Part shown: piece after piece, positions 5,183 to 60,608 of the stretch
Numbering within the stretch: position 1 is the stretch's first letter
Layout of the letters: the number at the start of each line of letters is the position of its first letter
Assembly: GCF_920987055.1 (NCBI RefSeq)
Contig: NZ_CAKLBX010000001.1
Location: forward strand, 310,001 to 374,000
Direction: 5' to 3'
DNA: 64,000 nt
Source of the DNA: Novosphingobium sp. CECT 9465
GTDB lineage: Bacteria; Pseudomonadota; Alphaproteobacteria; Sphingomonadales; Sphingomonadaceae
Notes under the pieces: model-generated
Seen by the model: only the letters and a program-made list of their open reading frames with translations
The model's database searches: none
Told to the model about the DNA's origin: nothing
Position numbers and translations under genes: made by a program

Positions 5183-5198
5183 CATATCAGGCGATAGG
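5183..5198. promoter_or_regulatory. Candidate operator, CCTRYC-N4-GRYAGG family (site 1)
   Basis: Reads CATATC-AGGC-GATAGG: right half exact, left half one mismatch from its mirror image. It ends 80 bp before the permease start at 5278, within the distance range of the other sites in this window. Confidence 0.55.
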
Positions 5199-5277
5199 CG
5201 CGAGCCATCTTCCGCAGTGTAGGCGTTGGTTCAACGGCAGTCGCCACAAGATATGCCGTATCGCGGGAGTAGCTTGA

Positions 5278-6459
5278 GTGGATATCACGCAGAACAGCGA
5301 AAACGGAACCGGGATGCCCGGTGCGATCGGCCTGTGGGCGCTTCTGCTCAGTTCGTTGTTTCCGATGCTGGGGTTGTTTGCGCTTGGCCCCGCGTTGCCC
5401 GCAGTGGCTGCTGCCTTTCCGGGCGATCCCAACGCCGAAGTCATGGCGCAACTTATCGGCGGTGCCAGTGGTATCTCGTTTGCGCTCAGTTCGCCGATCA
5501 TCGGCGGGATGATCGAACGTTGGGGATACAAGCGGATATACATAGCATCGCTGGTTGCGTTCGCGATCTTCGGGACCCTTCCCGTATTGCTCAACAGCCT
5601 GCCACTGATCCTGTTGACGCGGGTGATCATGGGCATGTGTGTTGCAGGAACGATGACGGCGGGCCTTGCAGGCCTTGCCACGCTTCCTGCGCACGTGCGC
5701 CCCGGTCTTTATGGTCGCAACGCCATGATGTCGAGCGTGGGGGCCGTCGTGATCTTTCCGGCAGTAGGGGCCATATCGACTTACGGTTGGCGCTTGCCGT
5801 TTCTGATCCACCTTATTGCGCTTGCGGCGGTGCCGATGGCGATGACATTGCCCACCCGGTCAATCCCCACCAGCCACTCGCGCACAGAAACCGGCGGGCG
5901 CGGGCTGGGCGTATCGCCAGTGCTGCTTGTGCTGGCGGGCTTCATCGGGCTTGTCATGTATGTCGGTCCCATGTTCTCGCCGTTCTACCTTCACACCATC
6001 GACGTGACGGACCCGCGCCTTGCTGCCCTGCCATTAAGCGGCATGTCCATCGGCGCGATGACGATGACAGGCAATTACGGACGGCTTCATGCCAGGCTGG
6101 GCGCGCACAAGCTGTTTGCGCTGACGCTGGTATTGTCTGGAATCGGCTTGCTGATCGCAGGTTTTGCGCCGAACCTGCCGGTGTTCATGGTGGGAATGTT
6201 CTGCGTTTCGTGCGGGATTGCGCTGTTTGCGCCCAACGTCAATTCGCACATCGCGGCCACATCCGCCAATCCGGCGCGCGGCATAGGCTGGGCGATGTCC
6301 GCCATGTTCGCTGTCCAGGTGGCGTTCCCCTTTCTCGCGCGTGCGATTTCACAGGCGGCGGGACCGGCCGGGGTATTCATCGCCTTCGGCATTTGTGCGC
6401 TGGTGCCCGGCCTCGCAACGGTAGCGATGAACCGACGCCGGGCGCACCGGCTTGCCTGA
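5278..6459 (+). CDS. MFS transporter
   Basis: 393 residues with about 12 hydrophobic segments; the first runs WALLLSSLFPMLGLFALGP. The loop after helix 2 reads GGMIERWGYKRIY, a version of the MFS signature GxxxDRxGRR. It is likely a proton-driven importer or exporter of small organic molecules in the inner membrane. I chose the GTG at 5278 because GGGAG lies about ten bases upstream; an in-frame ATG at 5314 is the alternative. It heads a plus-strand run with the EthD protein, GntR regulator and VOC protein, so it may move the compound that this regulator senses. Confidence 0.86.
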   Translation: MDITQNSENGTGMPGAIGLWALLLSSLFPMLGLFALGPALPAVAAAFPGDPNAEVMAQLIGGASGISFALSSPIIGGMIERWGYKRIYIASLVAFAIFGTLPVLLNSLPLILLTRVIMGMCVAGTMTAGLAGLATLPAHVRPGLYGRNAMMSSVGAVVIFPAVGAISTYGWRLPFLIHLIALAAVPMAMTLPTRSIPTSHSRTETGGRGLGVSPVLLVLAGFIGLVMYVGPMFSPFYLHTIDVTDPRLAALPLSGMSIGAMTMTGNYGRLHARLGAHKLFALTLVLSGIGLLIAGFAPNLPVFMVGMFCVSCGIALFAPNVNSHIAATSANPARGIGWAMSAMFAVQVAFPFLARAISQAAGPAGVFIAFGICALVPGLATVAMNRRRAHRLA

Positions 6460-6507
6460 CGGCATGGGTCTGAACAGGATTGAAAATAAAGAAAAGGGAC
6501 ACAGACG

Positions 6508-7227
6508 ATGTGGCGGATCACGGCTTTCCTGAAACGGCACCCCGGCCTGACGCGCAAGGAATTCATCCTGCAGGCAGAAGCGCTGATGACCCGGATCGCC
6601 GATCATCGGGGCGCCCCCGTGCGCGTCATCCTCAACCTTCCGATGGACCCGCTGCCCGTGGAACTGGCAACCATGTTCGGCGACAGGTTCGATGCCGTGG
6701 TCGAGCTGTGGTTTGCCGATGCGCCATCGGCAAATGCCGCGCTTGCACAATTGGCCGCAGACGAGGCCATCGGCGCATTGGCCGCTTCGGCAATTGACCA
6801 AGGTGGCAGCCACGCATGGCTGGCCGAAGTGGTCCCCCAGATACCGCCGCCGCCGGCGTTCCTGAAGTTCGTGGTTGCAGGCCAGATGGCCGATAACTTT
6901 ACCTTGGCCGAAGCGCAGGAATACTGGCGGACAGAGCATCCGCGCCTGTTCCTGACGGTCACCGATTTTGTTCCCTATATCGTTGGCTACACCCAGATGC
7001 ATGGCCGCAATGAATTGGCGCCGGGCGCCATCGATTGGCTGGCTGCTCACGATTTCTATCCGATGTGCGCCGAAATGGGGCTGCGCAGCGTGGAGGATGT
7101 CGTCACGGCTTATTCGATGCCCAGCTATCTTGCGATTATCCGGCCGGACGAGGAATACTTCAGCAAGCCCGGCGAGATGCTTTCGTTTGCTTCTGACCGC
7201 GCATTGGCATGGGATCAGGGCGGGTGA
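6508..7227 (+). CDS. EthD-domain protein, two-domain dimeric alpha-beta barrel
   Basis: 239 residues. Two ferredoxin-like halves are visible: WRITAFLKRHPGLTRKEFIL at the start and FLKFVVAGQMADNFTLAEAQEYWRTEHP in the middle, the second matching the EthD pattern (LTxxEFxxYWxxxHP). EthD-type proteins are found with P450 and dioxygenase systems and in some cases act as small oxygenases, cyclases or decarboxylases. The actual reaction here is unknown. The ATG follows AAAGGGA. It begins 48 bp after the permease and is probably co-transcribed with it. Confidence 0.8.
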   Translation: MWRITAFLKRHPGLTRKEFILQAEALMTRIADHRGAPVRVILNLPMDPLPVELATMFGDRFDAVVELWFADAPSANAALAQLAADEAIGALAASAIDQGGSHAWLAEVVPQIPPPPAFLKFVVAGQMADNFTLAEAQEYWRTEHPRLFLTVTDFVPYIVGYTQMHGRNELAPGAIDWLAAHDFYPMCAEMGLRSVEDVVTAYSMPSYLAIIRPDEEYFSKPGEMLSFASDRALAWDQGG

Positions 7228-7282
7228 AGGTCGTCCGTCCTTGATCCACCCGGCAATTGACAAGGCCGGTCGGGATACTGCT

Positions 7283-8116: not shown

Positions 8117-8150
8117 TCTCTCCTTTCGTCCGGCAGGATACCGCACCCGG

Positions 8151-12135: not shown

Positions 12136-12151
12136 CCTGTCATCGGGCAGG
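12136..12151. promoter_or_regulatory. Candidate operator, CCTRYC-N4-GRYAGG family (site 4)
   Basis: Reads CCTGTC-ATCG-GGCAGG, an exact match to the degenerate dyad. It lies 91-106 bp upstream of the SDR at 12242. A CTAAAG that could serve as a -10 element follows about 20 bp downstream. Confidence 0.6.
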
Positions 12152-12241: not shown

Positions 12242-13075
12242 ATGAGTGCAGGTCTGCAAAAGCGCTGGTTCATTACCGGAATTTCAACCGGGTTTGGCCG
12301 GGAACTGGCCCGCGCGGTCGCGCAATCGGGCGAAAAGGTATTGGGCACGGTGCGCAAGGCTGCGCAAATTGCCGAACTGGCCGCCGAGGGCATCGACGCC
12401 ATCGTCATGGATGTGAACGATCAGGTGGCGGTCGATGAAGGAGTGCGCGCTGCAACCGAACGGCTCGGCGGAATAGACGTGCTGGTCAACAACGCTGGTT
12501 TCGGCATGGTCGGTGCCATCGAAGCGCTATCACTGGACGAAGTGCGCGCGGTGATGGAAACCAATTTCTTTGGCGTCCTGCGCGTCACACAGGCGCTGAT
12601 CCCGGCAATGCGCGCCAGCGGCGGCACAATCGTGATGATTTCGTCCATGGCCGGCCAGATCGGCTTTGCCGGGGCGGGAGCCTACTGCGCCTCGAAGTTC
12701 GCGCTTGAAGGCTTGTCGGATGCGCTGGGGGAGGAACTGGCACCATTCGGCGTGAATGTCCTGATCGTTGAACCGGGTGCCTTCCGCACAGATTTTGCCG
12801 GGCGTTCCATGCTGGCGGCCGAAGGGTCCGTCGATGCCTACGCCGGAATGCAGGCTGGCGAGGCCAAGCATCGGGCCGCGTCGTACAGCGGGTCAGAGCC
12901 GGGAGATCCTGTGAAAGGCGCGCAGGCGATCGTCGACATCATCCGTGCAGGCAACATGCCACGTCGCCTGGCCCTGGGCGAAGACGCGGTCAACGGCATC
13001 CTGCATAAACTGGCCAATGTGAAGAATGACGTGGAAACGTGGCGCCAAGCCTCGCTCGGTACGGCATTCGCATGA
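12242..13075 (+). CDS. SDR family oxidoreductase (17-beta-HSD-like C type)
   Basis: 277 residues. The glycine motif is GISTGFG at 13-19, followed by the strand-2 sequence GTVRK typical of this SDR branch, NNAG at 83-86, SSMAG with the catalytic Ser near 135, Tyr148 and Lys152 in YCASK. The C-terminal half is long (TDFAGRSM, then GDPVKGAQAIVDII), as in retinol/steroid-dehydrogenase-like SDRs. A paralogue of the same architecture lies at 59706. It stands alone on the plus strand, divergent from the SDR-SDR-oxidoreductase unit. Confidence 0.88.
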   Translation: MSAGLQKRWFITGISTGFGRELARAVAQSGEKVLGTVRKAAQIAELAAEGIDAIVMDVNDQVAVDEGVRAATERLGGIDVLVNNAGFGMVGAIEALSLDEVRAVMETNFFGVLRVTQALIPAMRASGGTIVMISSMAGQIGFAGAGAYCASKFALEGLSDALGEELAPFGVNVLIVEPGAFRTDFAGRSMLAAEGSVDAYAGMQAGEAKHRAASYSGSEPGDPVKGAQAIVDIIRAGNMPRRLALGEDAVNGILHKLANVKNDVETWRQASLGTAFA

Positions 13076-13667: not shown

Positions 13668-14252
13668 TCATTCGGCGGCAGCCATGACCGGCTGTTCGCT
13701 CAACTGATCGTTGCGCAGCGCGGCCAGCGTTTCCGCACTTGGCGGCACAACACAGACGCTGCCGATGCCAAGCGCCTTGAGCACGCGGCCGGTGCCGACC
13801 CAGCAGCCAAGCATCAGGTTCGTGTCGCCAATTTCTTCTTCGGTGAACAGGGCGTGCATGCGCTCCCACAGCACATCATCGCCATTGATGCTTTCAATGT
13901 CGCGTTCAAAACGGTCGGCATATTCGATCAACAGCTTCTCCCGATCGGTAAAGCCTTCCCAATCGTAGTTGCAATCGATGGCATTCTGATAGAATTCTTC
14001 GGGAATCTCGCCACCGTCAAAACCCGGCCAATCGCGCCACAGCCGCATGCCCGCGCAGATCGGGCAGTTCGTGCGGGCAGCACCCATGATCCGCATGCCT
14101 TCGCGTTCGCGTGCGGTCAGGGTCGTCTCAGGTGCGTCATAGATTGTGCGGAACATGCGTTGGCGTGTGTCGAGCAGCTTTTCAGTGCCAACGTGGTTGA
14201 GAATGTGGACCAGCGGTTCGCGGTCTGCGGGAATGTCTACTCTGTACGGCAT
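13668..14252 (-). CDS. Carboxymuconolactone decarboxylase / AhpD-like protein
   Basis: 194 residues, all-helical. The AhpD-type motif CPICAGMR puts the two cysteines at 63 and 66; a nearby His for the proton relay, as in AhpD, is not obvious. The family covers gamma-carboxymuconolactone decarboxylase and thiol-dependent peroxidases; without the full relay I cannot choose. The start is set by AGGAGAGG just upstream of the ATG at 14252; the in-frame ATG at 14267 lies before that ribosome site. A candidate operator sits 75-90 bp upstream. Confidence 0.82.
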   Translation of the reverse strand: MPYRVDIPADREPLVHILNHVGTEKLLDTRQRMFRTIYDAPETTLTAREREGMRIMGAARTNCPICAGMRLWRDWPGFDGGEIPEEFYQNAIDCNYDWEGFTDREKLLIEYADRFERDIESINGDDVLWERMHALFTEEEIGDTNLMLGCWVGTGRVLKALGIGSVCVVPPSAETLAALRNDQLSEQPVMAAAE

Positions 14253-14326
14253 TGTCCTCTCCTGCATTATTTCGTCAGGGAATTATCCGACAATGCGCAG
14301 TGCATAGTTTGCAGTTTCAATCCACA

Positions 14327-14342
14327 TCTGTCTTTGGATAGG
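14327..14342. promoter_or_regulatory. Candidate operator, CCTRYC-N4-GRYAGG family (site 5)
   Basis: Reads TCTGTC-TTTG-GATAGG: right half exact, left half one mismatch. It is 75-90 bp upstream of the minus-strand CMD-like gene and 148-163 bp before the plus-strand NTF2-like gene. On the minus strand a TATGCA hexamer follows about 20 bp downstream. Confidence 0.55.
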
Positions 14343-15044: not shown

Positions 15045-15060
15045 CCTGCCCGCTGGTAGG
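15045..15060. promoter_or_regulatory. Candidate operator, CCTRYC-N4-GRYAGG family (site 6)
   Basis: Reads CCTGCC-CGCT-GGTAGG, an exact match to the degenerate dyad, 71-86 bp upstream of the start of the four-gene unit at 15131. Confidence 0.65.
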
Positions 15061-15130
15061 ATCGTAGCATGCCGAGGTGAAGCAAAGACGGCGCTCATGC
15101 CGCACAACGATGCAGCAGGGAGAACCGAGG

Positions 15131-15703
15131 ATGCTCACCCTTTCAACCGCGCGCCAAAGTCTTGCCCGGCTCGATGCGCGGATCGCCGCCGAATCCGATG
15201 CCACGCGCCGGGGCTGGCTGACGGTTCATCGCAATCATTGGTGGGGGGAAGTCATCAACGATGTCGACATGGTGATGGAAACGATGTCGCACGGCCCGAT
15301 TTCCTACAGTTTCGACGGACACCCCTTCATGACGCCGGAAGGCGGCATGGCCACTATCGTCGATCGCGCCGGAACCCGCGCAATGTATGAAGGCGTGGTT
15401 GCGCTGGGCGTTCGCATGGCGGGGCCGTTCGATGAAGAACGCGTCGCCTTCGATGAGAACGGACTTATCGTTCGCGCCGTTCTCAGCGCGATCTATCCCG
15501 GCGCTTTCATGACCAGGCATAGCGAACCTGTTGATCCAGATGAGTTCTATCTGGCGCGCTGGCCCAATATCACGATGATGCGCTTCGATGCAGACGGACT
15601 CATGATGGGCGAAGACATCATCAACGGCGCGCCGCTTCTTGTGCAGCAGGTAGACCGCAGCAAAGTCGACATGCTGGTGGACGGTCCGCTCGAATTGGCC
15701 TGA
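15131..15703 (+). CDS. NTF2-like protein
   Basis: 190 residues, longer than the other NTF2-like proteins here. It begins with a helical segment (QSLARLDARIAAESDATRRGWLTVHRNHWWGEV), followed by the strand-rich NTF2 part with FYLARWPNITMMRFDADGLMMGEDI. The start is fixed by GGGAGAAC before the ATG at 15131. It leads an operon with two SDRs and a further NTF2-like gene (27-bp gap, 11-bp gap, 4-bp overlap), so it should act on the same intermediate as those SDRs. No catalytic residue can be assigned. Confidence 0.72.
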   Translation: MLTLSTARQSLARLDARIAAESDATRRGWLTVHRNHWWGEVINDVDMVMETMSHGPISYSFDGHPFMTPEGGMATIVDRAGTRAMYEGVVALGVRMAGPFDEERVAFDENGLIVRAVLSAIYPGAFMTRHSEPVDPDEFYLARWPNITMMRFDADGLMMGEDIINGAPLLVQQVDRSKVDMLVDGPLELA

Positions 15704-15730
15704 TGCCGAATTATCTTGAAGGAATATTCG

Positions 15731-16552
15731 ATGAGACGACTGGAAGGCAAAGTGGCCGTCATCAGCGGCACGGCCGGCGGGATCGGCGCTGCAACAGCGC
15801 GGCGGCTTGCATCCGAAGGGGCGAAAGTGGTGCTGGCCGACATCAATGTCGAAGGCGCGGAAAAAACGGCTCAAGGCATCCGTGACGCCGGTGGCGAAGC
15901 GATGGTGCAGTACCTCGATCTTGCCGAAGAAAGCAGCATCACGGCGCTGATTGCGGCGACGATTGCCAGGTATGGCCAGATCGACGTGCTGTTCAACAAC
16001 GCTGCCGACACCCGTTATGAAACCATGCTGCACGATGCGTCGGTCGAATTCATGGACCCTGACCTGTGGGACAGCGTGTTCCGCATCAACACGCGCGGCA
16101 CCATGCTGATGATCAAGCATACGCTGCCACACATGATCCGGCAGGGCGGGGGTTCGATCATCAATACCAGTTCGGGCGCGTCGCTGCGCGCCGATCTTTT
16201 CCGCGTAGCCTATGCTGCGTCCAAGGCCGCGATCAACGTGCTGACCGAATACGTTGCGGCGCAGTACGGCAAGAAAGGCATTCGCTGCAATGTCGTCTCG
16301 CCCGGTCTGGTGGTGACGGAAAACACCGAGATGAATCAGGGCCACAATCTGGACCTGTACCTTGCCCATCACCTGACCCCGCGTTTGGGACGGCCAGACG
16401 ATCTTGCCGCGATGGTTGCCTTGCTGGCATCGGACGATGGCAAGTTCATAACCGCGCAGATCATCCCGGTGGATGGCGGAATTTCCACCCATTTCCCGCA
16501 TGTCGCAGAAACCCGTGGCGGCGTTGACGCCTACAAACCGGCCAAGAACTGA
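15731..16552 (+). CDS. SDR family oxidoreductase (NNAA / HxP-tail subfamily)
   Basis: 273 residues; GTAGGIG at 13-19, Asp37 (NAD preference), NNAA at about 89-92, Ser near 148, Tyr161 and Lys165 in YAASK. Tail after DGG: ISTHFPHVAETRG. The ATG at 15731 follows GAAGGAA. It is adjacent to and clearly homologous with the next SDR (shared RGTMLMIKH, INTSSGA, AAQYGKxG), which indicates a tandem duplication. Second gene of the 15131-17786 operon. Confidence 0.9.
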   Translation: MRRLEGKVAVISGTAGGIGAATARRLASEGAKVVLADINVEGAEKTAQGIRDAGGEAMVQYLDLAEESSITALIAATIARYGQIDVLFNNAADTRYETMLHDASVEFMDPDLWDSVFRINTRGTMLMIKHTLPHMIRQGGGSIINTSSGASLRADLFRVAYAASKAAINVLTEYVAAQYGKKGIRCNVVSPGLVVTENTEMNQGHNLDLYLAHHLTPRLGRPDDLAAMVALLASDDGKFITAQIIPVDGGISTHFPHVAETRGGVDAYKPAKN

Positions 16553-16563
16553 GGAGCACCCCG

Positions 16564-17394
16564 ATGGGCAGACTGACCGGAAGAACATGCATCGTCACGG
16601 GCGGCGCGGGCGGCCTTGGTTCGGCCACGGTGCGGCGGCTTTGCGCCGAAGGCGGGCAGGTGGTGATCGCCGATGTCATGCTGGAGCCGGCCGAAAAGCT
16701 GGCGGCGGAAATTCGCGCCGAGGGGGGGGATGCCATTGCGCTCCACCTTGACCTGGGCGATCCTGCCAGCATCGAAAAGCTGATCGACGACACGCTGGCG
16801 CATTATGGCAAGCTGGAAGTCGTCTTCAACAATGGCGCAGCCACCAACCCCGATTTCCTGAACCGTGACGGCACGGCTGGCGACATGGAAATCGACGTGT
16901 GGGACGAGACATTCAAGGTGAATGCCCGCGGCACCATGTTGATGATTAAGCACGCGCTGCCTGCATTGATCGCATCGGGCAGTGGCGCGATCATCAACAC
17001 CAGTTCAGGTGCTGCGCTGCTCGGCGATCTTGCCCGCACGGCCTATGCTGCGTCGAAATCGGCGGTCAATGCGCTGACGCTCTATGTCGCTGCGCAATAT
17101 GGCAAGCAGGGCGTCACCTGCAACGTCATCTCGCCGGGCATGGTGCCTACGGCCACATCGCGGGCCAATCAGCCGGAACTGATCCGAATGGTCGAACGTC
17201 ACCACCTGACGCCGGAACTGGGCTATCCCGAAGACATTGCCGCGATGGTGGCACTGCTTGCATCCGAAGACGGGCGCTTCGTCAGCGGGCAAATCCTGCG
17301 TGTGGACGGCGGCGTGAGCAAGGCATTCGCTCATGTGGCCGACAATCGCGACCAGTTCGAAACGCACGTTGCTAATATCAATGGTGCGGCATGA
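16564..17394 (+). CDS. SDR family oxidoreductase, tandem paralogue of the preceding gene
   Basis: 276 residues; GGAGGLG at 13-19, Asp37 at the end of strand 2, NNGA at 89-92 in place of NNAG, Tyr161 and Lys165 in YAASK. The tail is VSKAFAHVADNRDQ, a diverged form of the HxP tail. Divergence in the substrate loop after VISPG compared with its neighbour suggests the two act on different epimers or successive carbons. Its stop codon overlaps the next start (ATGA). Confidence 0.9.
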   Translation: MGRLTGRTCIVTGGAGGLGSATVRRLCAEGGQVVIADVMLEPAEKLAAEIRAEGGDAIALHLDLGDPASIEKLIDDTLAHYGKLEVVFNNGAATNPDFLNRDGTAGDMEIDVWDETFKVNARGTMLMIKHALPALIASGSGAIINTSSGAALLGDLARTAYAASKSAVNALTLYVAAQYGKQGVTCNVISPGMVPTATSRANQPELIRMVERHHLTPELGYPEDIAAMVALLASEDGRFVSGQILRVDGGVSKAFAHVADNRDQFETHVANINGAA

Positions 17395-17793: not shown

Positions 17794-18597
17794 TTACAGG
17801 ATCGAGTTGGTCTGGCCGCCATCGCACAGGATGGTTTCACCTGTTGTGAACCCGGCCTGTTGCGAACACAGGAACAGGCATAATGCGGCCATTTCCTGCG
17901 GTTTTCCGGCACGGCCCGTGGGAATATGCTGCACCATGTTGCCCCGGAAGTCGTCAAAGCTCATTCCGGCGGCTGCTGCCTGCTCGTGCGTCCATGCCCG
18001 ATTGGCTTCTGTGTCGATGTAGCCTGTGCCGATGGTGTTGATGGTGATGCCCTGCGCTGCCACTTCACCCGCAACCGTCTTGGCCAGCGCACTTGCCGCC
18101 ACGCGGGTGCTGTTGGCAAGTACATAGCCAAAGTTCAGGCCGCTGCGCACCAGTTGCTTGGCAGTGCCCGATCCGATGGTCACGATACGGCCCCAGCGTT
18201 GCTGCTGCATGTGCGGCAGCACCACCCGCAGCATGCGCGCATAGCACAAGACGACGCTGTGATAGGCCTGCGCCAGCATGTCCTCGTCCACATCGGCAAA
18301 GGTGCCGGGCGGTGGCGGATCGAGATTGTAGATCGCAATGTCAGGCGCAGCGAGATTTGCCACCGCGAAATCATGAATGCGCTGATAGCTGGCAAGATCG
18401 AGCAGGTCCGCGCTGATGCCAACCGCTTTCACGCCCTTGGCCTGCACCGCGGCGACCGTTTCATCGATGGCCTGCTGCCCACGCGCGACAACGATGACAT
18501 TGGCCCCGGCATCGGCAAGATCGAGTGCAATCTGCCGCCCGATCCCTTTGCTGCCACCCAGCACAAGCGCCGTGCGCCCTGCAATGCCCAGATCCAT
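17794..18597 (-). CDS. SDR-like protein lacking the catalytic lysine
   Basis: 267 residues; the glycine motif GGSKGIG is present at 14-20 and Arg39 suggests NADP. The active site is abnormal: the Tyr158 position reads YVLAN, with Asn162 where YxxxK has Lys, and NNAG is replaced by NLDPPPP. Similar FabG-like SDRs without YxxxK are known, and some may be non-catalytic or use a different mechanism. ATG 18597 follows GGGAGAAC. It lies downstream of the P450 on the same strand but has its own candidate operator 59-74 bp upstream. Confidence 0.82.
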   Translation of the reverse strand: MDLGIAGRTALVLGGSKGIGRQIALDLADAGANVIVVARGQQAIDETVAAVQAKGVKAVGISADLLDLASYQRIHDFAVANLAAPDIAIYNLDPPPPGTFADVDEDMLAQAYHSVVLCYARMLRVVLPHMQQQRWGRIVTIGSGTAKQLVRSGLNFGYVLANSTRVAASALAKTVAGEVAAQGITINTIGTGYIDTEANRAWTHEQAAAAGMSFDDFRGNMVQHIPTGRAGKPQEMAALCLFLCSQQAGFTTGETILCDGGQTNSIL

Positions 18598-18655: not shown

Positions 18656-18671
18656 TCTGCCGCCCGGTAGG
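18656..18671. promoter_or_regulatory. Candidate operator, CCTRYC-N4-GRYAGG family (site 7)
   Basis: Reads TCTGCC-GCCC-GGTAGG, one mismatch from the dyad, 59-74 bp upstream of the SDR-like gene at 18597. It overlaps a larger perfect inverted repeat, GCCGCCCGGTA at 18659-18669 with its complement at 18682-18692, which may act as a weak terminator for the P450. Confidence 0.5.
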
Positions 18672-20068: not shown

Positions 20069-20084
20069 CCTATCCAAAGGCGGG
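20069..20084. promoter_or_regulatory. Candidate operator, CCTRYC-N4-GRYAGG family (site 8)
   Basis: Reads CCTATC-CAAA-GGCGGG: left half exact, right half one mismatch. It lies 99-114 bp upstream of the permease at 20183. A second half-site (ACTATC, 19972-19977) is on the P450 side of the same 271-bp divergent gap, which otherwise holds no gene. Confidence 0.5.
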
Positions 20085-24341: not shown

Positions 24342-24381
24342 CGATTGCCCGTTAGGGCAATTCTTTTTGGCCCCGTCGGCT

Positions 24382-24397
24382 CCTACCTTACGAAAGG
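24382..24397. promoter_or_regulatory. Candidate operator, CCTRYC-N4-GRYAGG family (site 9)
   Basis: Reads CCTACC-TTAC-GAAAGG: left half matches the consensus, right half one mismatch. It lies 72-87 bp upstream of the monooxygenase start at 24469 and indicates that this gene has its own promoter. Confidence 0.55.
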
Positions 24398-24468
24398 CAC
24401 GGCGTCCGCTCTGCGGGCTTACAGCCCCGCATGTAATAAGATGCGTGCGTGAGATAAAGGATGTGCAG

Positions 24469-26947: not shown

Positions 26948-27069
26948 TCGTCCGGTTGCTAATTGTAAGCACCGTTCAACGATTATTGTCTTCGCTTTGG
27001 ACTGCCTCTCCTAGATTTCCCCGCATAAAGGCAGTGCCGGATCAACCGAGCCAGGCCTGTTCGGGAGAA

Positions 27070-28782: not shown

Positions 28783-28969
28783 CGCTCCGTCAATGAAATT
28801 GTCGGCTAAAATGCGCGGATTTGGCCGCTGCGCCAAACAGTTATCGCCTCTGGTAGAGGCCAGCCCCTTGCCGAGCAAGCGGTTACCCCTATCCTTCGAG
28901 TCAGTAAAAACGAATCATAAGCGCACGTGTGCATGAAAACGTGCCATGGACCCTGGAGAGGACCACCCG

Positions 28970-31657
28970 ATGAGCGTCATGCCGACCGCAGTCGTGCCGC
29001 CTCGCGCGCCACACGATCAAATTGTCCGCCCGAACCTGGAAGCCAAGATCGATGCGGTTGACCGGTCACGCGTCACCACTGTGTTTGCGCCCGCCGGTTT
29101 CGGCAAGACCATGGCCGTGCTGCAATGGGCAACTGCACTGGCCGGGCGGGGTCGCCCGGTGCTATGGCTTGCCTCGCGGGCTGGAATCGCCAGTTTCGAG
29201 CAGTTCGCCGATGCCTTGCGCGCTGCCTGCACGGCCAATGCGCTGGACTGGACTCATCAGACAGCCGGCGCACAATGTATCGATGCGGCCGCCAGCTTCG
29301 CCGCGATGGTCGCCTCATGCCCGGCACGACCGGTGCTTGTGATCGACGATGCCCAGGTCCTGCCGCCCGAAGTGCACGATTTCCTGACCGACGTTATCGC
29401 AGGCGCGCGCGATGCGATGACTACGATCATCGTATCACGAAGCTTCGGCAATGTGCCCATCGCGCGCCTTCGCGCACAGGGCTATCTGTTCGAAATCGGC
29501 TGGGGGGATTTGCGCTTTTCGGTCGAGGAAACCACCGACCTGATTGATTGCGTTGGCGCGGTGCCGCTTTCATCCGATGAAATCGAAGTGATGGTGGCGC
29601 AAACGCAAGGGTGGCCGGCCGGCATCACGATGACCCGGCTGATACAGGATCGCGAAATGCGCGATGGCGAAGGCCGCTTCATCCCGCCTTCCGGTCTGCG
29701 CCGGGAATTTGAAGAGTATTTCGGCGAAGAAGTGATGTCGCGCGAACCTGCCGACGTGCGCGAATTCCTCGTCAGCACGATCATCCTTGAAGAACTGACC
29801 GCTGATATTTGCGCGGCGATGACCGGAAACGACGATTCCCGCGCCGTGATGGAGCGGGTCGAGGAGCGCGGCCTGTTTCTGCGCGCCAGCGATCTTGACC
29901 GGACCAGCTATCGCTATCATCCGCTGTTCCGGGAAATGGTGCTCCGCCGCCTGAATGATCGCGATCCGGTGCGCGCGGCCGAATTGCAGCGCCGTGCCAG
30001 CCGCCACTTCGCGGCCGTCGGCCAGTACCTGAAGGCCGTGGAACATGCGCGGTTAAGCAATGACGCCGAATTTCTGGCGGACATGCTGGATGAACTTGCC
30101 GATCCCCTGACATTTTCGGGCAATCTCGATCTGGTCGATCAACTGGTTGCAGCGCTTCCCACCACCGTGTGCCGCACGCGTCCCCGGCTGGCGCTGGCCA
30201 TTGCGTGGCGGCGCATTCGGTCGCTTGCGTTCGAATCTGCCGAAACGCTCGTCGGCATGGCGCAGGCCGAATGGGAACGCCGCCAGGCTCTGGCCCATAA
30301 CCCCATCGACCAGCAGCGTCTGGCAATGGCGATAGAGCACCGTGAACTGATGCTTGCCGCCGGGCGCGACGATATGCGCGCTATCGAAACCCGCGCTGAA
30401 ACCCTGTTGCGCAAATTCGGTGATGACGAACCTTATCTCAGCTGCACGGTACTGGCGCAACTGATGGCATCGCGGCGTGAACTGTACCATTTCAAGGACG
30501 TGCTGCGGCTTGAGGCGGAAGCCCGTCACGCGCTGCGACGGCCGGGATCGGATTTCGCTGCCATCGCGCTCAAGACATCGATTGCGCCCACTCTGGCCGC
30601 ACAGGGCAAGACCGATGCAGCCGAAGCCATGCTGGAAGAAGCACTCGATTATGCCCGCGCGCTGGGCAAGCCGGGGATCGCGGCGCTGCCATCACTGCCA
30701 CTGGCAGAAATGCTCTATGATCGCGGTGATGTCGCACGGGCGCGGGCGCTGGTCGAAGAACACCTGCCGGTTGCACACGAATGGGGCTTCGTCGATCAGA
30801 TCGTTTCCGGTCACATCGTCAAGGCGCGATTGCTGTTCAACGATGGCGATGCCGCCGGTGCGGCAAAAGTGCTGAAGGAAATGCAGGTTCTGGCTATCGA
30901 ATACGGCCTGGACCGCATGCGTGCCATCGCCGTCAGCGAACAGGTGCGGATGCTGATCCGTTCGGGCGAGGCGCAGCAAGCGCGCACTTTGATGGAAACC
31001 AGCAATTTCTGGCCCTCGGCCGAACCCTACCCCACGCTCAATCCCTCGCGCCTGCACGAAAGCATCGCCATAGCGGTGATCCGCATAGAAATGCACGGGC
31101 ATCGCCTTTTGCCAGCGCGCAAGATTGCCAAGCGCTGGTCCGAATTCGTCCGCAGGAACGGTGCCGTTCGATCGGGCGTGACCTTCGAACTGCTGCTGGC
31201 CGAAATCGCGATTCTGGGAGGCGACAGATCGGAAGCGCGCCGCGCGGTGCGCGAAGCCGTCACGCTGGCCGCGCCAAGCGGATGGACGCAGATATTTCTT
31301 GATGAAGGCGAAGCTATCAAGGCGATCCTGAGCGAAGCTTATGGCCAGGGGCCACTCGTCGATAGCGTCCCAGACAGGTTTGGGCGCAAACTGGTTGCCG
31401 CGATGCAAACGGTGATCGCCATCGACAATCAGGATGGCAACGACAGCGACTATGGCCTTTCCGGCCGGCTGATGAACCGTGAAATCGACATTCTGCGCAT
31501 GGTCGGCGGCGGGTTGCGCAACCGTGAAATCGGGGACCGGCTGGGGCTGACCGAAGGCACGGTGAAATGGTACATGCAGCAGATCTACGACAAGCTGGGC
31601 GTCCGGCGGCGACCGCAGGCCGTAACCCGCGCCCGCCAGCTCGGCGTCCTCGGCTGA
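28970..31657 (+). CDS. LAL-type (MalT-like) LuxR family transcriptional regulator
   Basis: 895 residues. It has an N-terminal STAND-type ATPase with Walker A FAPAGFGKT (about residues 35-43) and Walker B PVLVIDDAQ, a long helical TPR-like middle region, and a C-terminal LuxR helix-turn-helix MNREIDILRMVGGGLRNREIGDRLGLTEGTVKWYMQQIYDKLG. Such large ATP-binding activators respond to small inducers. GGAGAGGA precedes the ATG at 28970; the in-frame ATG at 28946 lacks a site. It is the only large activator in the window and the best candidate to read the recurring dyad; a CCTATC half-site lies at 28888-28893, about 80 bp upstream. Ends 7 bp from the convergent PQQ gene. Confidence 0.92.
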   Translation: MSVMPTAVVPPRAPHDQIVRPNLEAKIDAVDRSRVTTVFAPAGFGKTMAVLQWATALAGRGRPVLWLASRAGIASFEQFADALRAACTANALDWTHQTAGAQCIDAAASFAAMVASCPARPVLVIDDAQVLPPEVHDFLTDVIAGARDAMTTIIVSRSFGNVPIARLRAQGYLFEIGWGDLRFSVEETTDLIDCVGAVPLSSDEIEVMVAQTQGWPAGITMTRLIQDREMRDGEGRFIPPSGLRREFEEYFGEEVMSREPADVREFLVSTIILEELTADICAAMTGNDDSRAVMERVEERGLFLRASDLDRTSYRYHPLFREMVLRRLNDRDPVRAAELQRRASRHFAAVGQYLKAVEHARLSNDAEFLADMLDELADPLTFSGNLDLVDQLVAALPTTVCRTRPRLALAIAWRRIRSLAFESAETLVGMAQAEWERRQALAHNPIDQQRLAMAIEHRELMLAAGRDDMRAIETRAETLLRKFGDDEPYLSCTVLAQLMASRRELYHFKDVLRLEAEARHALRRPGSDFAAIALKTSIAPTLAAQGKTDAAEAMLEEALDYARALGKPGIAALPSLPLAEMLYDRGDVARARALVEEHLPVAHEWGFVDQIVSGHIVKARLLFNDGDAAGAAKVLKEMQVLAIEYGLDRMRAIAVSEQVRMLIRSGEAQQARTLMETSNFWPSAEPYPTLNPSRLHESIAIAVIRIEMHGHRLLPARKIAKRWSEFVRRNGAVRSGVTFELLLAEIAILGGDRSEARRAVREAVTLAAPSGWTQIFLDEGEAIKAILSEAYGQGPLVDSVPDRFGRKLVAAMQTVIAIDNQDGNDSDYGLSGRLMNREIDILRMVGGGLRNREIGDRLGLTEGTVKWYMQQIYDKLGVRRRPQAVTRARQLGVLG

Positions 31658-33863: not shown

Positions 33864-33879
33864 TCTGCCGACCGATAGG
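33864..33879. promoter_or_regulatory. Candidate operator, CCTRYC-N4-GRYAGG family (site 10)
   Basis: Reads TCTGCC-GACC-GATAGG: right half exact, left half one mismatch. It lies in the divergent gap, 55-70 bp from the PQQ dehydrogenase start and 86-101 bp from the VOC start, so it could serve both. Confidence 0.6.
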
Positions 33880-33964
33880 TTTGCGGTTCTGCGCCATTTG
33901 CGTGACACAACCTGCCTGCCAGAGGACGGGATACGATCCGCCTCATATCGTGGATTTTCGGGGC

Positions 33965-36273: not shown

Positions 36274-36289
36274 CCTGCCTGTCGATAGG
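36274..36289. promoter_or_regulatory. Candidate operator, CCTRYC-N4-GRYAGG family (site 11)
   Basis: Reads CCTGCC-TGTC-GATAGG, an exact match to the degenerate dyad. It is in the divergent gap, 85-100 bp from the ferredoxin start and 56-71 bp from the ABM-domain gene. Confidence 0.65.
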
Positions 36290-36344: not shown

Positions 36345-36635
36345 ATGGCCGCTTACGTACGTTTTTACCGGATGACGGCGCGCGGTGGCGAAGGTGCCGC
36401 GCTGCGCAGCGCTCTTGAAGCGCTGGCCGGCACGGTGCAGCAAATCGAAGGCTGCACCGGCACGGAATTGCTCGAATATGCAGACAAACCCGGCCAGTTC
36501 GTGTTCCTCGAACGCTGGGTTTCTGCCGATGCCCACAAGGCTGGCGGCAAGCTGCTGGGCAAGGACGTGTTCGGTCCGGTCATGGCCGCGCTTGACGGCC
36601 CGCCCGATGCGGCCGCGCTTACGCCGCTGGATTAA
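36345..36635 (+). CDS. Antibiotic biosynthesis monooxygenase (ABM) domain protein
   Basis: 96 residues, a single ferredoxin-like ABM domain: AAYVRFYRMTARGGEGAALRSALEALAGTVQQIEGCTGTELLEYADKPGQFVFLERW, with the central GC-x-ELL and the FxxxERW strand. ABM domains dimerise and act as cofactor-free oxygenases or degrade reactive intermediates. I chose the ATG at 36345 since GGAG lies nine bases upstream; the ATG at 36321 is the alternative. Convergent with the next VOC gene, only 3 bp apart. Confidence 0.82.
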   Translation: MAAYVRFYRMTARGGEGAALRSALEALAGTVQQIEGCTGTELLEYADKPGQFVFLERWVSADAHKAGGKLLGKDVFGPVMAALDGPPDAAALTPLD

Positions 36636-38745: not shown

Positions 38746-38902
38746 AAATTTCGTCCGCCCTTGCTTTTGCCTGTCCGGCGATCATCCCTCGTACCGTCCT
38801 TCCTGGGCCACACCGTCGGCAAGGTTGCCCGCCGCCGGGCAGGTCACGTCATTGGTCCTTCACGCTCTTTTGCCGGGCATCGACGTGCGGACAAGGAATG
38901 GC

Positions 38903-44816: not shown

Positions 44817-44895
44817 CCCTGAACCCACCCTGTAAACTTGACACCATGCAACAAAGTCCAACCACCAAGACTAGGGACAGCGCGCTGTTCGCGGT

Positions 44896-44911
44896 CCTTT
44901 CCATCGGTAGG
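44896..44911. promoter_or_regulatory. Candidate operator, CCTRYC-N4-GRYAGG family (site 12)
   Basis: Reads CCTTTC-CATC-GGTAGG: right half exact to consensus, left half one mismatch. It is 80-95 bp upstream of the acyl-CoA ligase start, in the 116-bp gap after the next SDR. Confidence 0.55.
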
Positions 44912-44932: not shown

Positions 44933-45709
44933 TCAGCCGCAGCCGACTACGCCACCATCGACCGGGATTTGCGCGCCGGTAACATATCCGCCACCCCTGC
45001 CGCACAGGAACACGATCACTGCCGCAATATCGCCCGGCGTGCCCAGACGGCGCAGCGGAATATGGGCCAGCAGATCAGGGTCCACGCTATCTTCATCGCG
45101 CATGTGTGCGGTCATCTTCGTGGGGAAGAAGCCGGGGATGACCGCGTTGACGGTGATGTTGCGCTCAGCCAGGTCACCCGCCAGATCGCGCGTCATCATG
45201 TGCACGGCGGCCTTCGAAGCCGAATAGCTATAGGCATGCAGGCGTTCGACCGACATGCCAGCGACCGAACCGATGTTGATCACCCGCGCAGGATCGTCGG
45301 GCGTACCCGCCGCTGCCAGTTCGGGCAGCAGTTCGCGCACCATCGTGAACGGCGTCTGCACATTCACTGCCATGACCGATGGCCACGCCTTGTCGGGGAA
45401 AGTATCGATCTCTCCGCCCCAGGTCTTTCCGGCATTGTTGACGAGGATGTGGCAGGGACCGACCGCCGCGCGATACCGCTGGACCAGTTCCACCGCCGCT
45501 TCAGGGGTCGAAAGGTCCGCAGGCAGCGCGATACAGCGCCCCAGCGACGCCATTTCGGCCGCCGCCGCTTCGCACACATCGGCCTTGCGCGAGGTGATCG
45601 CCACGGTTGCGCCCGCAGAAAGCAGCCCCTCCGCGATCATCCGGCCCAGGCCCTGCGCCCCGCCGGTCACCAGCGCCGTCTTGCCGGTAAGGTCGAAAAG
45701 CGGCGACAT
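44933..45709 (-). CDS. SDR family oxidoreductase (RhlG-like)
   Basis: 258 residues; GGAQGLG at 16-22, Ser-Arg at 40-41 (NADP preference), NNAG at 91-94, Tyr162 and Lys166 in YSASK. The INIGSVAGM and AVIPGFFPTKM segments resemble RhlG-type beta-ketoacyl reductases and place it with the SDR at 52036. Its start overlaps the stop of the zinc-type dehydrogenase (TAATG), so the two are translated together. Confidence 0.9.
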   Translation of the reverse strand: MSPLFDLTGKTALVTGGAQGLGRMIAEGLLSAGATVAITSRKADVCEAAAAEMASLGRCIALPADLSTPEAAVELVQRYRAAVGPCHILVNNAGKTWGGEIDTFPDKAWPSVMAVNVQTPFTMVRELLPELAAAGTPDDPARVINIGSVAGMSVERLHAYSYSASKAAVHMMTRDLAGDLAERNITVNAVIPGFFPTKMTAHMRDEDSVDPDLLAHIPLRRLGTPGDIAAVIVFLCGRGGGYVTGAQIPVDGGVVGCG

Positions 45710-46719
45710 TACATCACCACCGAAATCTTGCCGAATGAATGCTTGTCACGCAAGTGCAGCAGCGCCTCACGCGCTTCAGCCAGCGGGAACGTGCGTTCGA
45801 TCACGGGCTTGATCTTGTGCTGATCGGCAAAGAGCAGCATTTCCCGGAAATCGACAGGATCACCCACCTGGCTGCCGAGCAGCGTTGCGCTTTTCAGGAA
45901 CAGGTCGGTTGCGTTGAACTTGATTTCGTTGCCTGCGGTTGATCCGTAGATCACGATGCGGCCGCCGGGATTGATCGCGCGGATATAGTTGGGCAGGCTG
46001 GGGCTGGGCGCGCCATCGAGCACCACGTCGACGCCGCCGGTCATCTTGCCGACCTTCTTGCGCCAATCGGGATCGGTGAACAGCAACCCGTCCTTCGCCC
46101 CCATCTTGCGCGCCTGATCGAGCACTTCCTCACTTTCGCCGGTGCAATAGACGTTGGCGCCAAGAGCCACTGCAAAGGCCAGACCGAACGTGGCAACGCC
46201 GCCGCCGATGCCGGAAATAAGCAGGGTTTCGCCCGGCTTGAGCTGGCCCTTGAACATGATCGCCCGCCAGGACGTGAGCGCGGTAAGCGGCATCGCGCCA
46301 GCTTCTTCCCAGGTCATGAACGCGGGCTTGGGGGCAAGGTTTTCAGCCGGAACGCAAATATATTCGGCAATCGTGCCGGGGAAGGGCATGCCCAGCAGGC
46401 CAAAATCGGGCGCTGGCGTATCGCGGCGATCGCCCCACTGCCGTGCAGGATAAAGGATCACTTCGTCCCCCACGCTGGCGCCGGTCACGCCTTCGCCCAG
46501 CATGTCGACAACGCCCGCGCCATCACAACCCATGACTGAAGGAACCGTCATGCCGGGATACTGCCCGTGCGCGATGAACAGTTCGCGGTGGTTGACCGAT
46601 GCGGCCTTGACCGCAACGCGGACTTCGCCGGGACCGGGGGTGGGAATTTCCACGTCCCGCACAGCAACGGCTTCAGGTCCATCGGTGGATTCGAGCAACA
46701 GCGCCTTCATTGTCGTCAT
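45709..46719 (-). CDS. Zinc-independent MDR family dehydrogenase (quinone-reductase-like)
   Basis: 336 residues. GroES-like N-domain with VKAASVNHRELFIAHGQYPGM and GCDGAGVVDMLGEGV, Rossmann domain with LLISGIGGGVATFGLAFAVALG. The catalytic zinc cysteine of alcohol dehydrogenases is absent, so it is closer to NADPH-quinone/enoyl reductases. It would reduce a conjugated double bond or act on a ketone. Start at 46719 (MTTMKALLLE), since homology begins there and the earlier in-frame frame start lacks support. First of the MDR-SDR unit, with an exact candidate operator 77-92 bp upstream. Confidence 0.88.
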   Translation of the reverse strand: MTTMKALLLESTDGPEAVAVRDVEIPTPGPGEVRVAVKAASVNHRELFIAHGQYPGMTVPSVMGCDGAGVVDMLGEGVTGASVGDEVILYPARQWGDRRDTPAPDFGLLGMPFPGTIAEYICVPAENLAPKPAFMTWEEAGAMPLTALTSWRAIMFKGQLKPGETLLISGIGGGVATFGLAFAVALGANVYCTGESEEVLDQARKMGAKDGLLFTDPDWRKKVGKMTGGVDVVLDGAPSPSLPNYIRAINPGGRIVIYGSTAGNEIKFNATDLFLKSATLLGSQVGDPVDFREMLLFADQHKIKPVIERTFPLAEAREALLHLRDKHSFGKISVVM

Positions 46720-46795
46720 CGTAATAGTATCCCGGTTGCCATGGTCGGCCGCGCGACCGTTTGCGTCGCGTTGCGCGGTCCCGCAAATTGCGGAA

Positions 46796-46811
46796 CCTGT
46801 CAACCGATAGG
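46796..46811. promoter_or_regulatory. Candidate operator, CCTRYC-N4-GRYAGG family (site 13)
   Basis: Reads CCTGTC-AACC-GATAGG, an exact match to the degenerate dyad, 77-92 bp upstream of the MDR gene on the minus strand. Confidence 0.65.
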
Positions 46812-46922
46812 CGGGCAGCTTCCGTTGCGATGCCGCCCCCATGGTTGATGATGCGCAGTAGTAATGCCGATCGCACCCGCTATGAAGCGCGCAGTGCAAG
46901 TCCGCGAAATTCAGGCAGACCG

Positions 46923-47261
46923 ATGGCCCGCAAACACTCGAAACATGAACCTTATGGCGACGTGCAGGATGATGACGATGCACCGCCGCCGGTAGTGCCC
47001 TGCTGGCTGTGCGGCAGGCCCACGGGCAAGACCATCGTCTGGCACCATCCCGTGCCCAAAAGCCGGGGCGGGCGCGATGTCGTGCCCATGCATTCCATTT
47101 GCCAGCAGACGCTGATCACCAATTTTACCAATTCGGAGCTTCAGCGCCACGGACTGGATGTCGAAGCCTTGCTCGCCAACCCTGTTGTACGAAAATTCGT
47201 CGATTGGGTGGCGAACAAGGACCCCGATTTCACGGCAACGATAGCCAGGAAGAAGCGCTGA
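46923..47261 (+). CDS. Small HNH-endonuclease-like protein
   Basis: 112 residues. CWLC (27-30) followed by WHHPVPKSRGG (40-50) and MHSICQQTL resembles the zinc-knuckle HNH nuclease core, with His41-His42 as the HH of the beta-beta-alpha-metal motif. A charged N-terminus precedes it. No terminase, intein or restriction partner is nearby. Convergent with the acyl-CoA dehydrogenase, 3 bp apart. Standalone HNH proteins are common in alphaproteobacteria and their role is unclear. The start at 46923 (MARKHSKHEP) gives the compact domain. Confidence 0.75.
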   Translation: MARKHSKHEPYGDVQDDDDAPPPVVPCWLCGRPTGKTIVWHHPVPKSRGGRDVVPMHSICQQTLITNFTNSELQRHGLDVEALLANPVVRKFVDWVANKDPDFTATIARKKR

Positions 47262-48428: not shown

Positions 48429-48431
48429 GGG

Positions 48432-51876: not shown

Positions 51877-52035
51877 CGCCACGAACGCCCCGCACAGTCG
51901 GGACAGTCCTATCCGCCCTGCCATAAGGAAGGTTTGCCGCTATAGCCCACCGGGCATGACTGCGCCGCAATACGGCCCCGCTTGCGGGAACGGTTTGCAT
52001 GCCTTTGTGGCAGCCTTGAAAAATGTGGAGCGGAA

Positions 52036-59647: not shown

Positions 59648-59665
59648 ACCGGCACCTTATCGGGG

Positions 59666-59698
59666 CAGGGATGCCGCCAGCCAACGGCGGCATCCCTG
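59666..59698. terminator. Terminator-like hairpin
   Basis: A perfect 13-bp stem (CAGGGATGCCGCC and complement) with a 7-nt loop, between the convergent aldehyde dehydrogenase and SDR. No T run. Confidence 0.6.
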
Positions 59699-59705
59699 GT
59701 CAGTG

Positions 59706-60536
59706 TCAGTAAGCCGTTGCGATGCTGACCGAACGGTTGCTCTCGATATCGGATGCGATGGCAGAAACCTTGGCTTCGACCACGGCCATCCCGTCCGCGC
59801 CGCCGACAAGGTAGAGCGGCAGCGTTTCGCCTTCGATCATGTCGATCATCAGTTGTGCGAGCTTTGCAGGGTCGCCCAGCTCATTGCCCACATGCTCCTG
59901 CGAGCGTTCTGCAACCTGCCCACACGGGTAGGCACCGTAGACATCGCGCATCCCATCCCGGATGGTGTTCGAGCGTGCCGACCAGAAATCGGTGCGGTAA
60001 CCGCCCGGTAGCGAGACCATCACCCGTACCCCCAGCGGGGTCAGTTCAGCATGCAGCGCCTCGCTCAACCCTACGACGGCATGTTTCGCCGCAGCATAAG
60101 CCGATCCGCCGCCAAAGCCTTCCATCCCGGCCATGGACGCCACGTTGATCAGGGTGCCGCGTGTGGCGCGCAAATGGGGCAGGGTCGCCTGGCATACCGC
60201 TACGGTGCCGAAGTAGTTGACGTTCATGGCCAAGCGGAAATCGTCGATTGAGCAGGCTTCGACAACGCCGAACATGCCGCAGCCGGCATTGTTCACAACC
60301 ACATCGATCCCGCCCAGCCATTGCGCCGCTTCGGCAACGCCTTGCGCCACGCTGGCCGGATCGCTGACATCCAGCGTGACAAGCCGGGCGTTGTCTGCTT
60401 GCGCATGGGGCGGCAGTGGAGAAGGCACATTTCGCACCGTGCCGACAACCCTGTCGCCATGCGCGACAACCGCTTCCATCAATGCCTTGCCAAGGCCGCT
60501 CGACACCCCGGTGATAAGCCAGTTCCTGCCCGCCAT
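59706..60536 (-). CDS. SDR family oxidoreductase (17-beta-HSD-like C type)
   Basis: 276 residues; GVSSGLG at 10-16, strand-2 GTVRN, NNAG at 82-85, VASMAG Ser, Tyr147 and Lys151 in YAAAK. It shares the layout and long C-terminal half of the SDR at 12242. GAGAGG precedes the ATG at 60536; the in-frame ATG at 60551 overlaps the ribosome site. A close-to-consensus operator lies 57-72 bp upstream, in the divergent gap with the next SDR. Confidence 0.9.
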   Translation of the reverse strand: MAGRNWLITGVSSGLGKALMEAVVAHGDRVVGTVRNVPSPLPPHAQADNARLVTLDVSDPASVAQGVAEAAQWLGGIDVVVNNAGCGMFGVVEACSIDDFRLAMNVNYFGTVAVCQATLPHLRATRGTLINVASMAGMEGFGGGSAYAAAKHAVVGLSEALHAELTPLGVRVMVSLPGGYRTDFWSARSNTIRDGMRDVYGAYPCGQVAERSQEHVGNELGDPAKLAQLMIDMIEGETLPLYLVGGADGMAVVEAKVSAIASDIESNRSVSIATAY

Positions 60537-60592
60537 CTCGCCTCTCTCCATAATTGTTCAGCCGATGCTTAGTGCAAGCGGGCGCGGACGGG

Positions 60593-60608
60593 CCTGTCAT
60601 CGGGAAGG
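60593..60608. promoter_or_regulatory. Candidate operator, CCTRYC-N4-GRYAGG family (site 15)
   Basis: Reads CCTGTC-ATCG-GGAAGG, one mismatch from the dyad. It sits 57-72 bp upstream of the SDR at 60536 and 126-141 bp from the plus-strand SDR at 60734. A CTAAGC hexamer follows about 20 bp downstream on the minus strand. Confidence 0.55.

Follow-up and report, generated by a model that had tools for sequence, protein, structure and literature searches.

A 16-bp dyad, CCTRYC-N4-GRYAGG, recurs upstream of genes in a 64-kb stretch of the Novosphingobium sp. CECT 9465 genome (the window; C1:310001-374000, in a genome of which 4,385,946 bases in six contigs were scanned; plain coordinates below are those of the window). 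We conclude that the dyad is most probably the operator of a clade of LAL activators (MalT/AlkS-like STAND proteins), predicted to be read here by an LAL encoded outside the window (LAL2) and perhaps also by one encoded within it (LAL1); we put the probability of this reading at about 0.86. It is favoured because LAL promoters of distant bacteria bear the dyad and because the motif tracks LAL genes between genomes of the genus. An earlier, sequence-only reading of the window had proposed a common operator for the whole island under one regulator. The shared operator was supported, as that of an LAL, while the regulon appears to exceed the window and the likelier regulator lies outside it.

Five exact dyads lie in the window (5135, 12136, 15045, 36274 and 46796), as compared with about 0.13 expected. 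The last four had been found by eye and were all exact on scanning; 5135 had been overlooked. The accompanying estimate of one chance match per million positions was too low, as 61% G+C gives about one per 0.5 Mb. The whole genome (4.386 Mb) contained 15 exact dyads, compared with nine matches to the reversed pattern, which was scanned alongside as a control. Fourteen of the 15 fell in two clusters on C1: a main cluster of 11 (C1:315135-473654), which takes in the window, and a remote cluster of three within 9 kb (C1:3192512-3201221; dyads at 3192512, 3197756 and 3201206). The fifteenth is on C3, within a called MFS open reading frame (ORF). When one mismatch was allowed, there were 239 dyad and 150 control matches, and 45 of the 239 were in the 160-kb island. 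At the control rate, the Poisson tail is 3e-7 for five sites per 64 kb and 9e-14 for 11 per 160 kb.

Site density was compared between coding and intergenic DNA, as the sequence-only reading had suggested. In C1:290001-514000, 29 of 49 sites with no or one mismatch fell outside called ORFs, although the calls fill 92.3% of the bases; the corresponding figure for two-mismatch sites was 17 of 128. The counts of 'coding' sites are too high, because the ORF caller set several starts too far upstream and called one spurious ORF. A matrix scan also supported the motif. A matrix trained on foreign LAL promoters found 18 sites of at least 12 bits in the 160-kb island (Markov expectation 1.55), none in 64 kb of flanks and none in 80 kb of control stretches; this matrix is too strict for CCTGCC-type sites and serves as a non-circular test alone. 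The idea that the sites are chance matches in a G+C-rich genome, chosen by eye, is extremely improbable. The degenerate pattern does give nine control matches per genome, and genus genomes lacking an LAL show no mean excess of it; the clustering, the conservation and the independent LAL promoters described below oppose this explanation. Chance may account for three single weak sites of the sequence-only reading, at 8151 (three mismatches), 12024 and 58004 (two each), for which no support was found.

The association with LAL proteins was apparent at their own promoters. We assembled 78 LAL loci, comprising 57 from a public-genome scan with the window LAL, 16 from the genus, the two of this genome and three from plasmids, with some records in twice. 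An exact dyad was present within 320 bp upstream of the LAL at 64 of the 78 loci, down to 30% identity and mostly 75-106 bp before the aligned start; two loci had no upstream sequence. Judged by their titles, the loci with an upstream dyad belong to Sphingomonadales, Caulobacterales, Nitratireductor, Hyphomonadaceae and Burkholderia/Paraburkholderia, and Burkholderia and Paraburkholderia LALs of 30-31% identity also bear the exact dyad. In a permutation control of 120 orderings of the half-site letters over 57 LAL loci, CCTRYC gave 81 matches against a mean of 2.8; the runner-up, CCYRTC (59 matches), overlaps it. Among the foreign LAL loci with a dyad, 45 distinct promoter sequences were left. 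The dyad was preceded by A in 84% and followed by A in 80% of LAL promoters, and was not extended. Sphingobium fontiphilum DSM 29348 has three clade LALs (L016, L037 and L041) on separate contigs; two are preceded by an exact dyad, and the third, which is LAL1-like, lacks one.

Within the genus, an LAL match with an E value of 1e-60 or lower was obtained in 17 of 195 genomes; identity was about 50% or more in 14 of them and 28-31% in three. Motif matches minus control matches averaged +6.7 in the 14 LAL genomes and +0.10 (standard deviation 3.0) in the 178 without an LAL (Mann-Whitney p 1e-8, a value that is only indicative because the genomes are related). An excess of seven or more was found in 9 of the 14 as compared with 5 of the 178, and the strict dyad in 9 of the 14 as compared with 6 of 181 others. 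Among the matches listed, sites crowd around the LAL; in G098, for instance, 12 of 14 fall within G098:C9:8.6-84 kb. Another array was seen in G209 (L097:9949-11560 and L098:2141-2285), where paired CTATC-N4-GATAG-like dyads, 55-59 bp from one another, precede an MFS gene, an ORF and a TetR gene. This probably reflects another regulator with a similar operator, in a separate system.

Conservation of individual sites was assessed by matching island proteins with tblastn to fetched parts of five relatives (G065, G105, G173, G178 and G098), with a 55% filter for orthologs. Where a gene had a site (at most one mismatch, near the start), so did its ortholog in 100 of 119 gene-genome pairs, as compared with 19 of 301 pairs for genes without a site and 0 of 420 for the reversed pattern; the pairs are not independent, because divergent genes share sites and paralogs may enter. 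In 70 aligned site pairs from 28 own sites, identity was 96% in the core (a figure raised by accepting pairs at two mismatches or fewer), 79% in the R/Y columns, 52% in N4 and 45% in the flanks. The four bases 3' of the dyad were 64-77% identical, and the dyad did not form part of a 20-bp inverted repeat. At the promoter of 473711, for example, the site reads CCTGCC-GAGA-GATAGG here, and the five relatives have CCTGCC, other N4 letters and either GATAGG or GACAGG. As one-mismatch forms such as CCTTTC and GGAAGG are conserved, position 4 probably takes T as well, and CCTDYC-N4-GRHAGG may be the better consensus.

Nineteen of the 25 distinct exact sites pair unlike halves, and the six concordant ones compare with 7.7 expected if the halves were independent. 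Independent variation of the halves around a free spacer is the behaviour of a DNA contact with two half-sites. The same observation makes it very improbable that the dyads are RNA hairpins, acting as terminators or leader structures: a 6-bp stem with a 4-base loop is possible where both halves match, and most exact sites combine unlike halves. The dyads also stand before genes, and upstream of the -10 at those sites that suggest one.

Only two full-length LAL matches were found in this genome, 51% identical to each other:

LAL1, window 28946..31657, + strand: 903 residues, with a MalT-like N-terminal part, tetratricopeptide repeats (TPR) and a GerE helix-turn-helix (HTH).
LAL2, C1:440704-443409, outside the window.

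Their identity is 85% in the HTH, 54% in the TPR part and 37% in the first 250 residues (the NOD part). Both have the MalT-like TPR (PF17874) and the C-terminal GerE HTH (PF00196) above cut-off. Evidence for a nucleotide-binding domain was obtained for each: the AAA/NTPase Pfam matches of LAL1 are all sub-cut-off and its residues 18-420 match the MalT structure 8bob (E 3e-36), and in LAL2 the MalT model spans residues 10-896, under the equivalog cut-off. Neither is a MalT equivalog (NCBIfam MalT scores of 252.8 and 228.6 against a cut-off of 537), and no autoinducer-binding domain was present among their Pfam matches. An exact dyad lies 66 bp ahead of the LAL2 ORF, so that the operator is found both at targets and at this regulator's own gene, as in the AlkS system.

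The relatives G065, G105, G173 and G178 each have one LAL, 85-91% identical to LAL2. LAL1 is absent from G065, G105 and G173, and sites are nevertheless kept there at the orthologs of window genes; for G178, the part that was fetched relates mainly to the island outside the window. Because relatives without LAL1 keep the window-gene sites, LAL2 is the better candidate and is probably the main regulator; as relatives with a LAL2 ortholog alone keep sites, LAL2 would suffice to explain the conservation. No close ortholog of LAL1 or of the adjacent 612-residue FAD protein (26944-31657) was found in the parts of the five relatives that were fetched, and the neighbours of LAL1 are kept in G065, G105 and G173. 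LAL1 thus looks like a later arrival, likely an insertion, and may read the same sites as LAL2. It is unlikely that the two divide the operator between them, with LAL1 in charge of the half of the island that holds the window and LAL2 of the rest. LAL1 does sit among the window genes, and the two proteins are similar in the HTH and more different in the NOD part, yet the three relatives in which the LAL2 ortholog is the sole LAL match retain sites at the window genes.

The position of the dyad relative to promoter elements was examined with offsets counted past the dyad. In LAL promoters, TTGC or TTGT was found at offset 10 in 33 of 45, a GATAAG-like consensus around offset 33-38, and a hexamer with at least four matches to TATAAT 17 bases on in 11, 16 in six and 15 in three. 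A -35 at offset 10 with its downstream hexamer places the dyad centre near -52.5. Among oriented island sites, TTG was at offset 10 in just three of 53, one of them LAL2's own, and no -35 stood out. The sequence-only reading had noticed a TA-containing hexamer about 20 bp past several sites. TA at offset 22 or 23 is indeed enriched, clearly in foreign loci (36 of 271 oriented sites; no other single offset exceeded 13) and weakly in the island itself. This places the dyad centre near -42 at targets, as a trend and not a start map, because the foreign set holds related and chance sites. The two positions are about one helical turn apart.

These spacings suggest a mechanism for the LAL operator. 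The sensor part would detect a catabolite, and the LAL would then bind the dyad via its C-terminal GerE HTH and recruit RNA polymerase. At catabolic promoters, where the dyad centre is near -42, the dyad would occupy the place of the -35 box, which the activator would replace. At the promoter of LAL2 itself, the dyad near -52.5 and ahead of a recognisable -35 would allow basal expression together with feedback. We infer binding, activation rather than repression, and the sign of the feedback from sequence.

The most serious alternative is that the dyad is the operator of the island TetR (37281-37922), a repressor released by a metabolite, with the LAL genes among its targets. A 16-bp dyad suits TetR proteins. 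The TetR gene is kept in G065, G105 and G173, TetR genes are annotated in the Novosphingobium resinovorum and Croceicoccus islands, and a similar dyad adjoins the TetR gene of G209, although the window and G209 TetR proteins are identical at 40 of 221 aligned positions. We consider this explanation improbable, chiefly on the ground that LAL genes of several orders are accompanied by the dyad. The TetR genes of L094 and L095 have no site with one mismatch or fewer immediately ahead of them. The Massilia stretch (L096; 32.7 kb) has no annotated TetR, in an incomplete gene table, and has five one-mismatch sites, one of them at the LAL; this is a weak point, as two one-mismatch control matches also occur there. 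A place near -42, in addition, better fits an activator.

Several observations weigh against an operator of the LAL clade. Twelve of the 78 LAL loci had no exact dyad in the 320 bp searched upstream. These include LAL1, its 73% relative L016, a partial locus, seven distant or HTH-divergent loci, and L021 and L054 (Acidocella and an Acetobacteraceae metagenome-assembled genome), which have about 52% identity and at best two to three mismatches upstream. The best match within 320 bp of LAL1 itself has three mismatches, so AlkS-like autoregulation is not seen for this gene. In the genus, five of the 178 LAL-less genomes reached the excess of seven or more, the LAL genomes G083, G084 and G197 showed an excess of just +2, +2 and +3, and the three genomes with an LAL at 28-31% were inconsistent (+2, -4 and -4). 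Strict sites were also present in six genomes without such an LAL, G209 among them, and eight stretches of these six gave no LAL match. The conservation figures are raised by the picking of pattern-like sites, by shared divergent sites and by the relatedness of the genomes. At a 9-bit cut, the matrix barely parts the island (0.33 per kb) from its flanks (0.22 per kb). Lastly, the -10 signal of the island is weak, with TA in six (offset 22) and four (offset 23) of 74 oriented sites, as compared with at most five elsewhere.

Within the window, the distance from dyad to called start is about 31 to 127 bp, somewhat wider than the 55-115 bp of the sequence-only reading. All eight one-mismatch sites which that reading listed (5183, 14327, 18656, 20069, 24382, 33864, 44896 and 60593) have one mismatch to the degenerate dyad; it had overlooked 8122, 33915, 38828 and 51917. 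The sites and their counterparts are as follows:

5135..5150, exact, CCTGTCACAAGGCAGG: between divergently oriented genes for an FMN oxidoreductase (-) and an MFS protein (+); counterparts matching the exact pattern in G105 and G173.
5183..5198, one mismatch, 48 bp from its partner at 5135: counterparts ahead of the MFS gene in G105 and G173, each with one mismatch.
8122..8137, one mismatch, near 8151: no ortholog passing the 55% filter.
12136..12151, exact: 90 bp ahead of SDR gene 12242-13075 (+), with TAAAGT at offset 22; identical site in G065, the sole relative with an ortholog.
14327..14342, one mismatch: 59 bp ahead of gene 13668-14267 (-); one-mismatch sites in G105 and G173.
15045..15060, exact: about 70 bp ahead of a + strand ATG at 15131; exact-pattern counterpart at G065:C32:25196-25211.
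18656..18671, one mismatch: 58 bp ahead of SDR gene 17794-18597 (-); no counterpart found in G065 (three mismatches), the sole relative with an ortholog.
20069..20084, one mismatch: between P450 (18703-19911, -) and MFS (20183-21517, +) genes; one-mismatch sites in G065, G105 and G173 at the MFS gene.
24382..24397, one mismatch: upstream of the probable true start of acyl-CoA dehydrogenase gene 24256-25647 (+); one-mismatch sites in G065, G105 and G173.
33864..33879, one mismatch: near the start of pyrroloquinoline quinone (PQQ)-dehydrogenase gene 31665-33908 (-); one-mismatch site in G065.
33915..33930, one mismatch: at the start of the same PQQ-dehydrogenase gene, 31665-33908 (-); one-mismatch site in G065.
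36274..36289, exact: between ferredoxin (35872-36219, -) and ABM-domain (36321-36635, +) genes; exact-pattern counterparts in G065, G105 and G173, not in G098.
38828..38843, one mismatch: 82 bp ahead of EthD gene 37927-38745 (-), which precedes the TetR gene; counterparts with one mismatch in G065 and G173 and two in G105.
44896..44911, one mismatch: 34 bp ahead of acyl-CoA ligase gene 43098-44861 (-); one mismatch in G105, G173 and G098.
46796..46811, exact: in the 5' part of ORF 45709-46983 (-); identical in G065, G105 and G173, not in G098.
51917..51932, one mismatch: 49 bp ahead of SDR gene 51982 (+); one mismatch in G105 and G173, and in G065 at a shifted distance.
60593..60608, one mismatch: between SDR genes 59706-60551 (-) and 60707-61534 (+).

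The exact sites had been described as all intergenic, which is right only once starts are corrected, as 46796 lies within a mechanically called ORF and 15045 is masked by a spurious one. We take 46796 to be probably upstream of the real start of ORF 45709-46983, because the ADH_N domain starts only at residue 117. The dehydrogenase domain of ORF 24256-25647 similarly starts at residue 87, and its 5' end is probably miscalled. The - strand ORF 15143-16588 was rejected as spurious: mismatches to G065 by codon position were 171, 54 and 56, and the + frame is open. Two + strand genes in 15077-16552, the second SDR-like by eye, are likely the real genes. An exact G065 site listed for 14327 is the one that aligns with 15045. 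Conservation of 60593 was unconfirmed, with two mismatches in G065 for the first SDR gene. An exact G065 counterpart at the second was discounted: the same site answers to 12136 and therefore belongs to another SDR locus. No counterpart of 12024 was found in G065, the sole relative with an ortholog. Tandem dyads occur back to back at G098:C9:16569-16600 and G043:C339:25373-25404; those at 5135 and 5183 in the window are 48 bp apart.

By its predicted genes, the island is catabolic, and the predicted regulon spans about 160 kb plus the remote cluster, well beyond the window. Pfam scans covered 57 window ORFs (one of them the spurious ORF) and thirty proteins from some of the island outside the window. 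In the window they revealed enzymes (SDRs, acyl-CoA dehydrogenases, a luciferase-like oxygenase, a P450, a Rieske oxygenase, an acyl-CoA ligase and a PQQ dehydrogenase), together with ferredoxin, SnoaL, EthD and glyoxalase-fold proteins, MFS transporters, TetR and GntR/FCD regulators and an LAL. Outside it, they revealed TonB receptors, the second LAL, a thiolase, a molybdopterin oxidoreductase, BKACE, a CoA transferase, P450s and others. The remote dyads at C1:3192512, 3197756 and 3201206 adjoin an SDR, a SnoaL/Rieske pair and a TonB-plug protein, and we regard this remote cluster as a probable second portion of the regulon.

A complete coenzyme F420 pathway (CofGH, NpdG, CofE, CofD and CofC, all above NCBIfam cut-offs) is encoded at C1:391436-398515, outside the window, and is followed by an F420-dependent luciferase-like monooxygenase (LLM) protein. 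The dyad at C1:391221, upstream of these genes, has one mismatch, and so do its counterparts in G065, G105, G173 and G178; none was found in G098. The N. resinovorum and Croceicoccus islands likewise have annotated F420 genes. It may be that one dyad, read by two activators that share a type of DNA-reading head and differ in their sensors, makes the island a single switch with two inputs. Through the conserved dyad ahead of the pathway, this switch would also govern F420 synthesis, so that F420 would be made on demand for one substrate class; we offer this reading tentatively, at rather less than even odds.

The proposed operator is assigned to an LAL clade that recurs in Sphingomonadales, Caulobacterales and Burkholderiales and whose annotation, where seen, is just 'LuxR C-terminal-related transcriptional regulator'. 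It lets regulons be proposed from sequence, the substrate be sought through the induced genes and a reporter be built. A single sensor, or a pair of them, may turn on dozens of genes together, and the two spacings (near -42 at target promoters, near -52.5 at the gene of the regulator itself) offer a concrete test of how a MalT-type activator contacts RNA polymerase. The sequence-only reading had not recognised the motif as a described operator; we searched the literature and likewise found no description of the dyad or of the LAL clade. In the available portions of the steroid and bile-salt literature, AraC, TetR, Lrp and LuxR regulators are named and the present operator is not. As far as this search shows, the operator and its tie to the LAL clade are new, as are the two spacings and the presence of the F420 pathway in the island; the kind of system, a MalT-type catabolic activator, is already known.

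The island LALs resemble MalT of Escherichia coli in their TPR and GerE domains and in the N-terminal match to structure 8bob, and differ from it in scoring far below the NCBIfam MalT cut-off. MalT boxes, moreover, are asymmetric. They share the GerE domain with LuxR-type quorum-sensing activators, and the dyad centre near -42 agrees with the position of the lux box, which is longer than the dyad; the absence of an autoinducer-binding domain among their Pfam matches sets them apart. A likeness by description is offered by the steroid-catabolism regulators of another sphingomonad, Caenibius tardaugens, namely EdcR and the LuxR-family regulator that the pdc cluster pairs with a luciferase-like monooxygenase (PMC8700777, PMC12239570); EdcR, however, is a repressor with an unrelated palindrome over the -10. 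A parallel in arrangement, again by description and not by sequence, is AlkS of Pseudomonas putida GPo1, which a review presents as a MalT-type activator with operators at the target promoter and before its own gene, and with positive feedback (PMC8784404). The AlkS operator is a 20-bp inverted repeat (PMC8784404), as opposed to the 16-bp dyad with half-site CCTRYC found here, and the island differs further in carrying two LALs and in having dozens of sites spread over about 160 kb.

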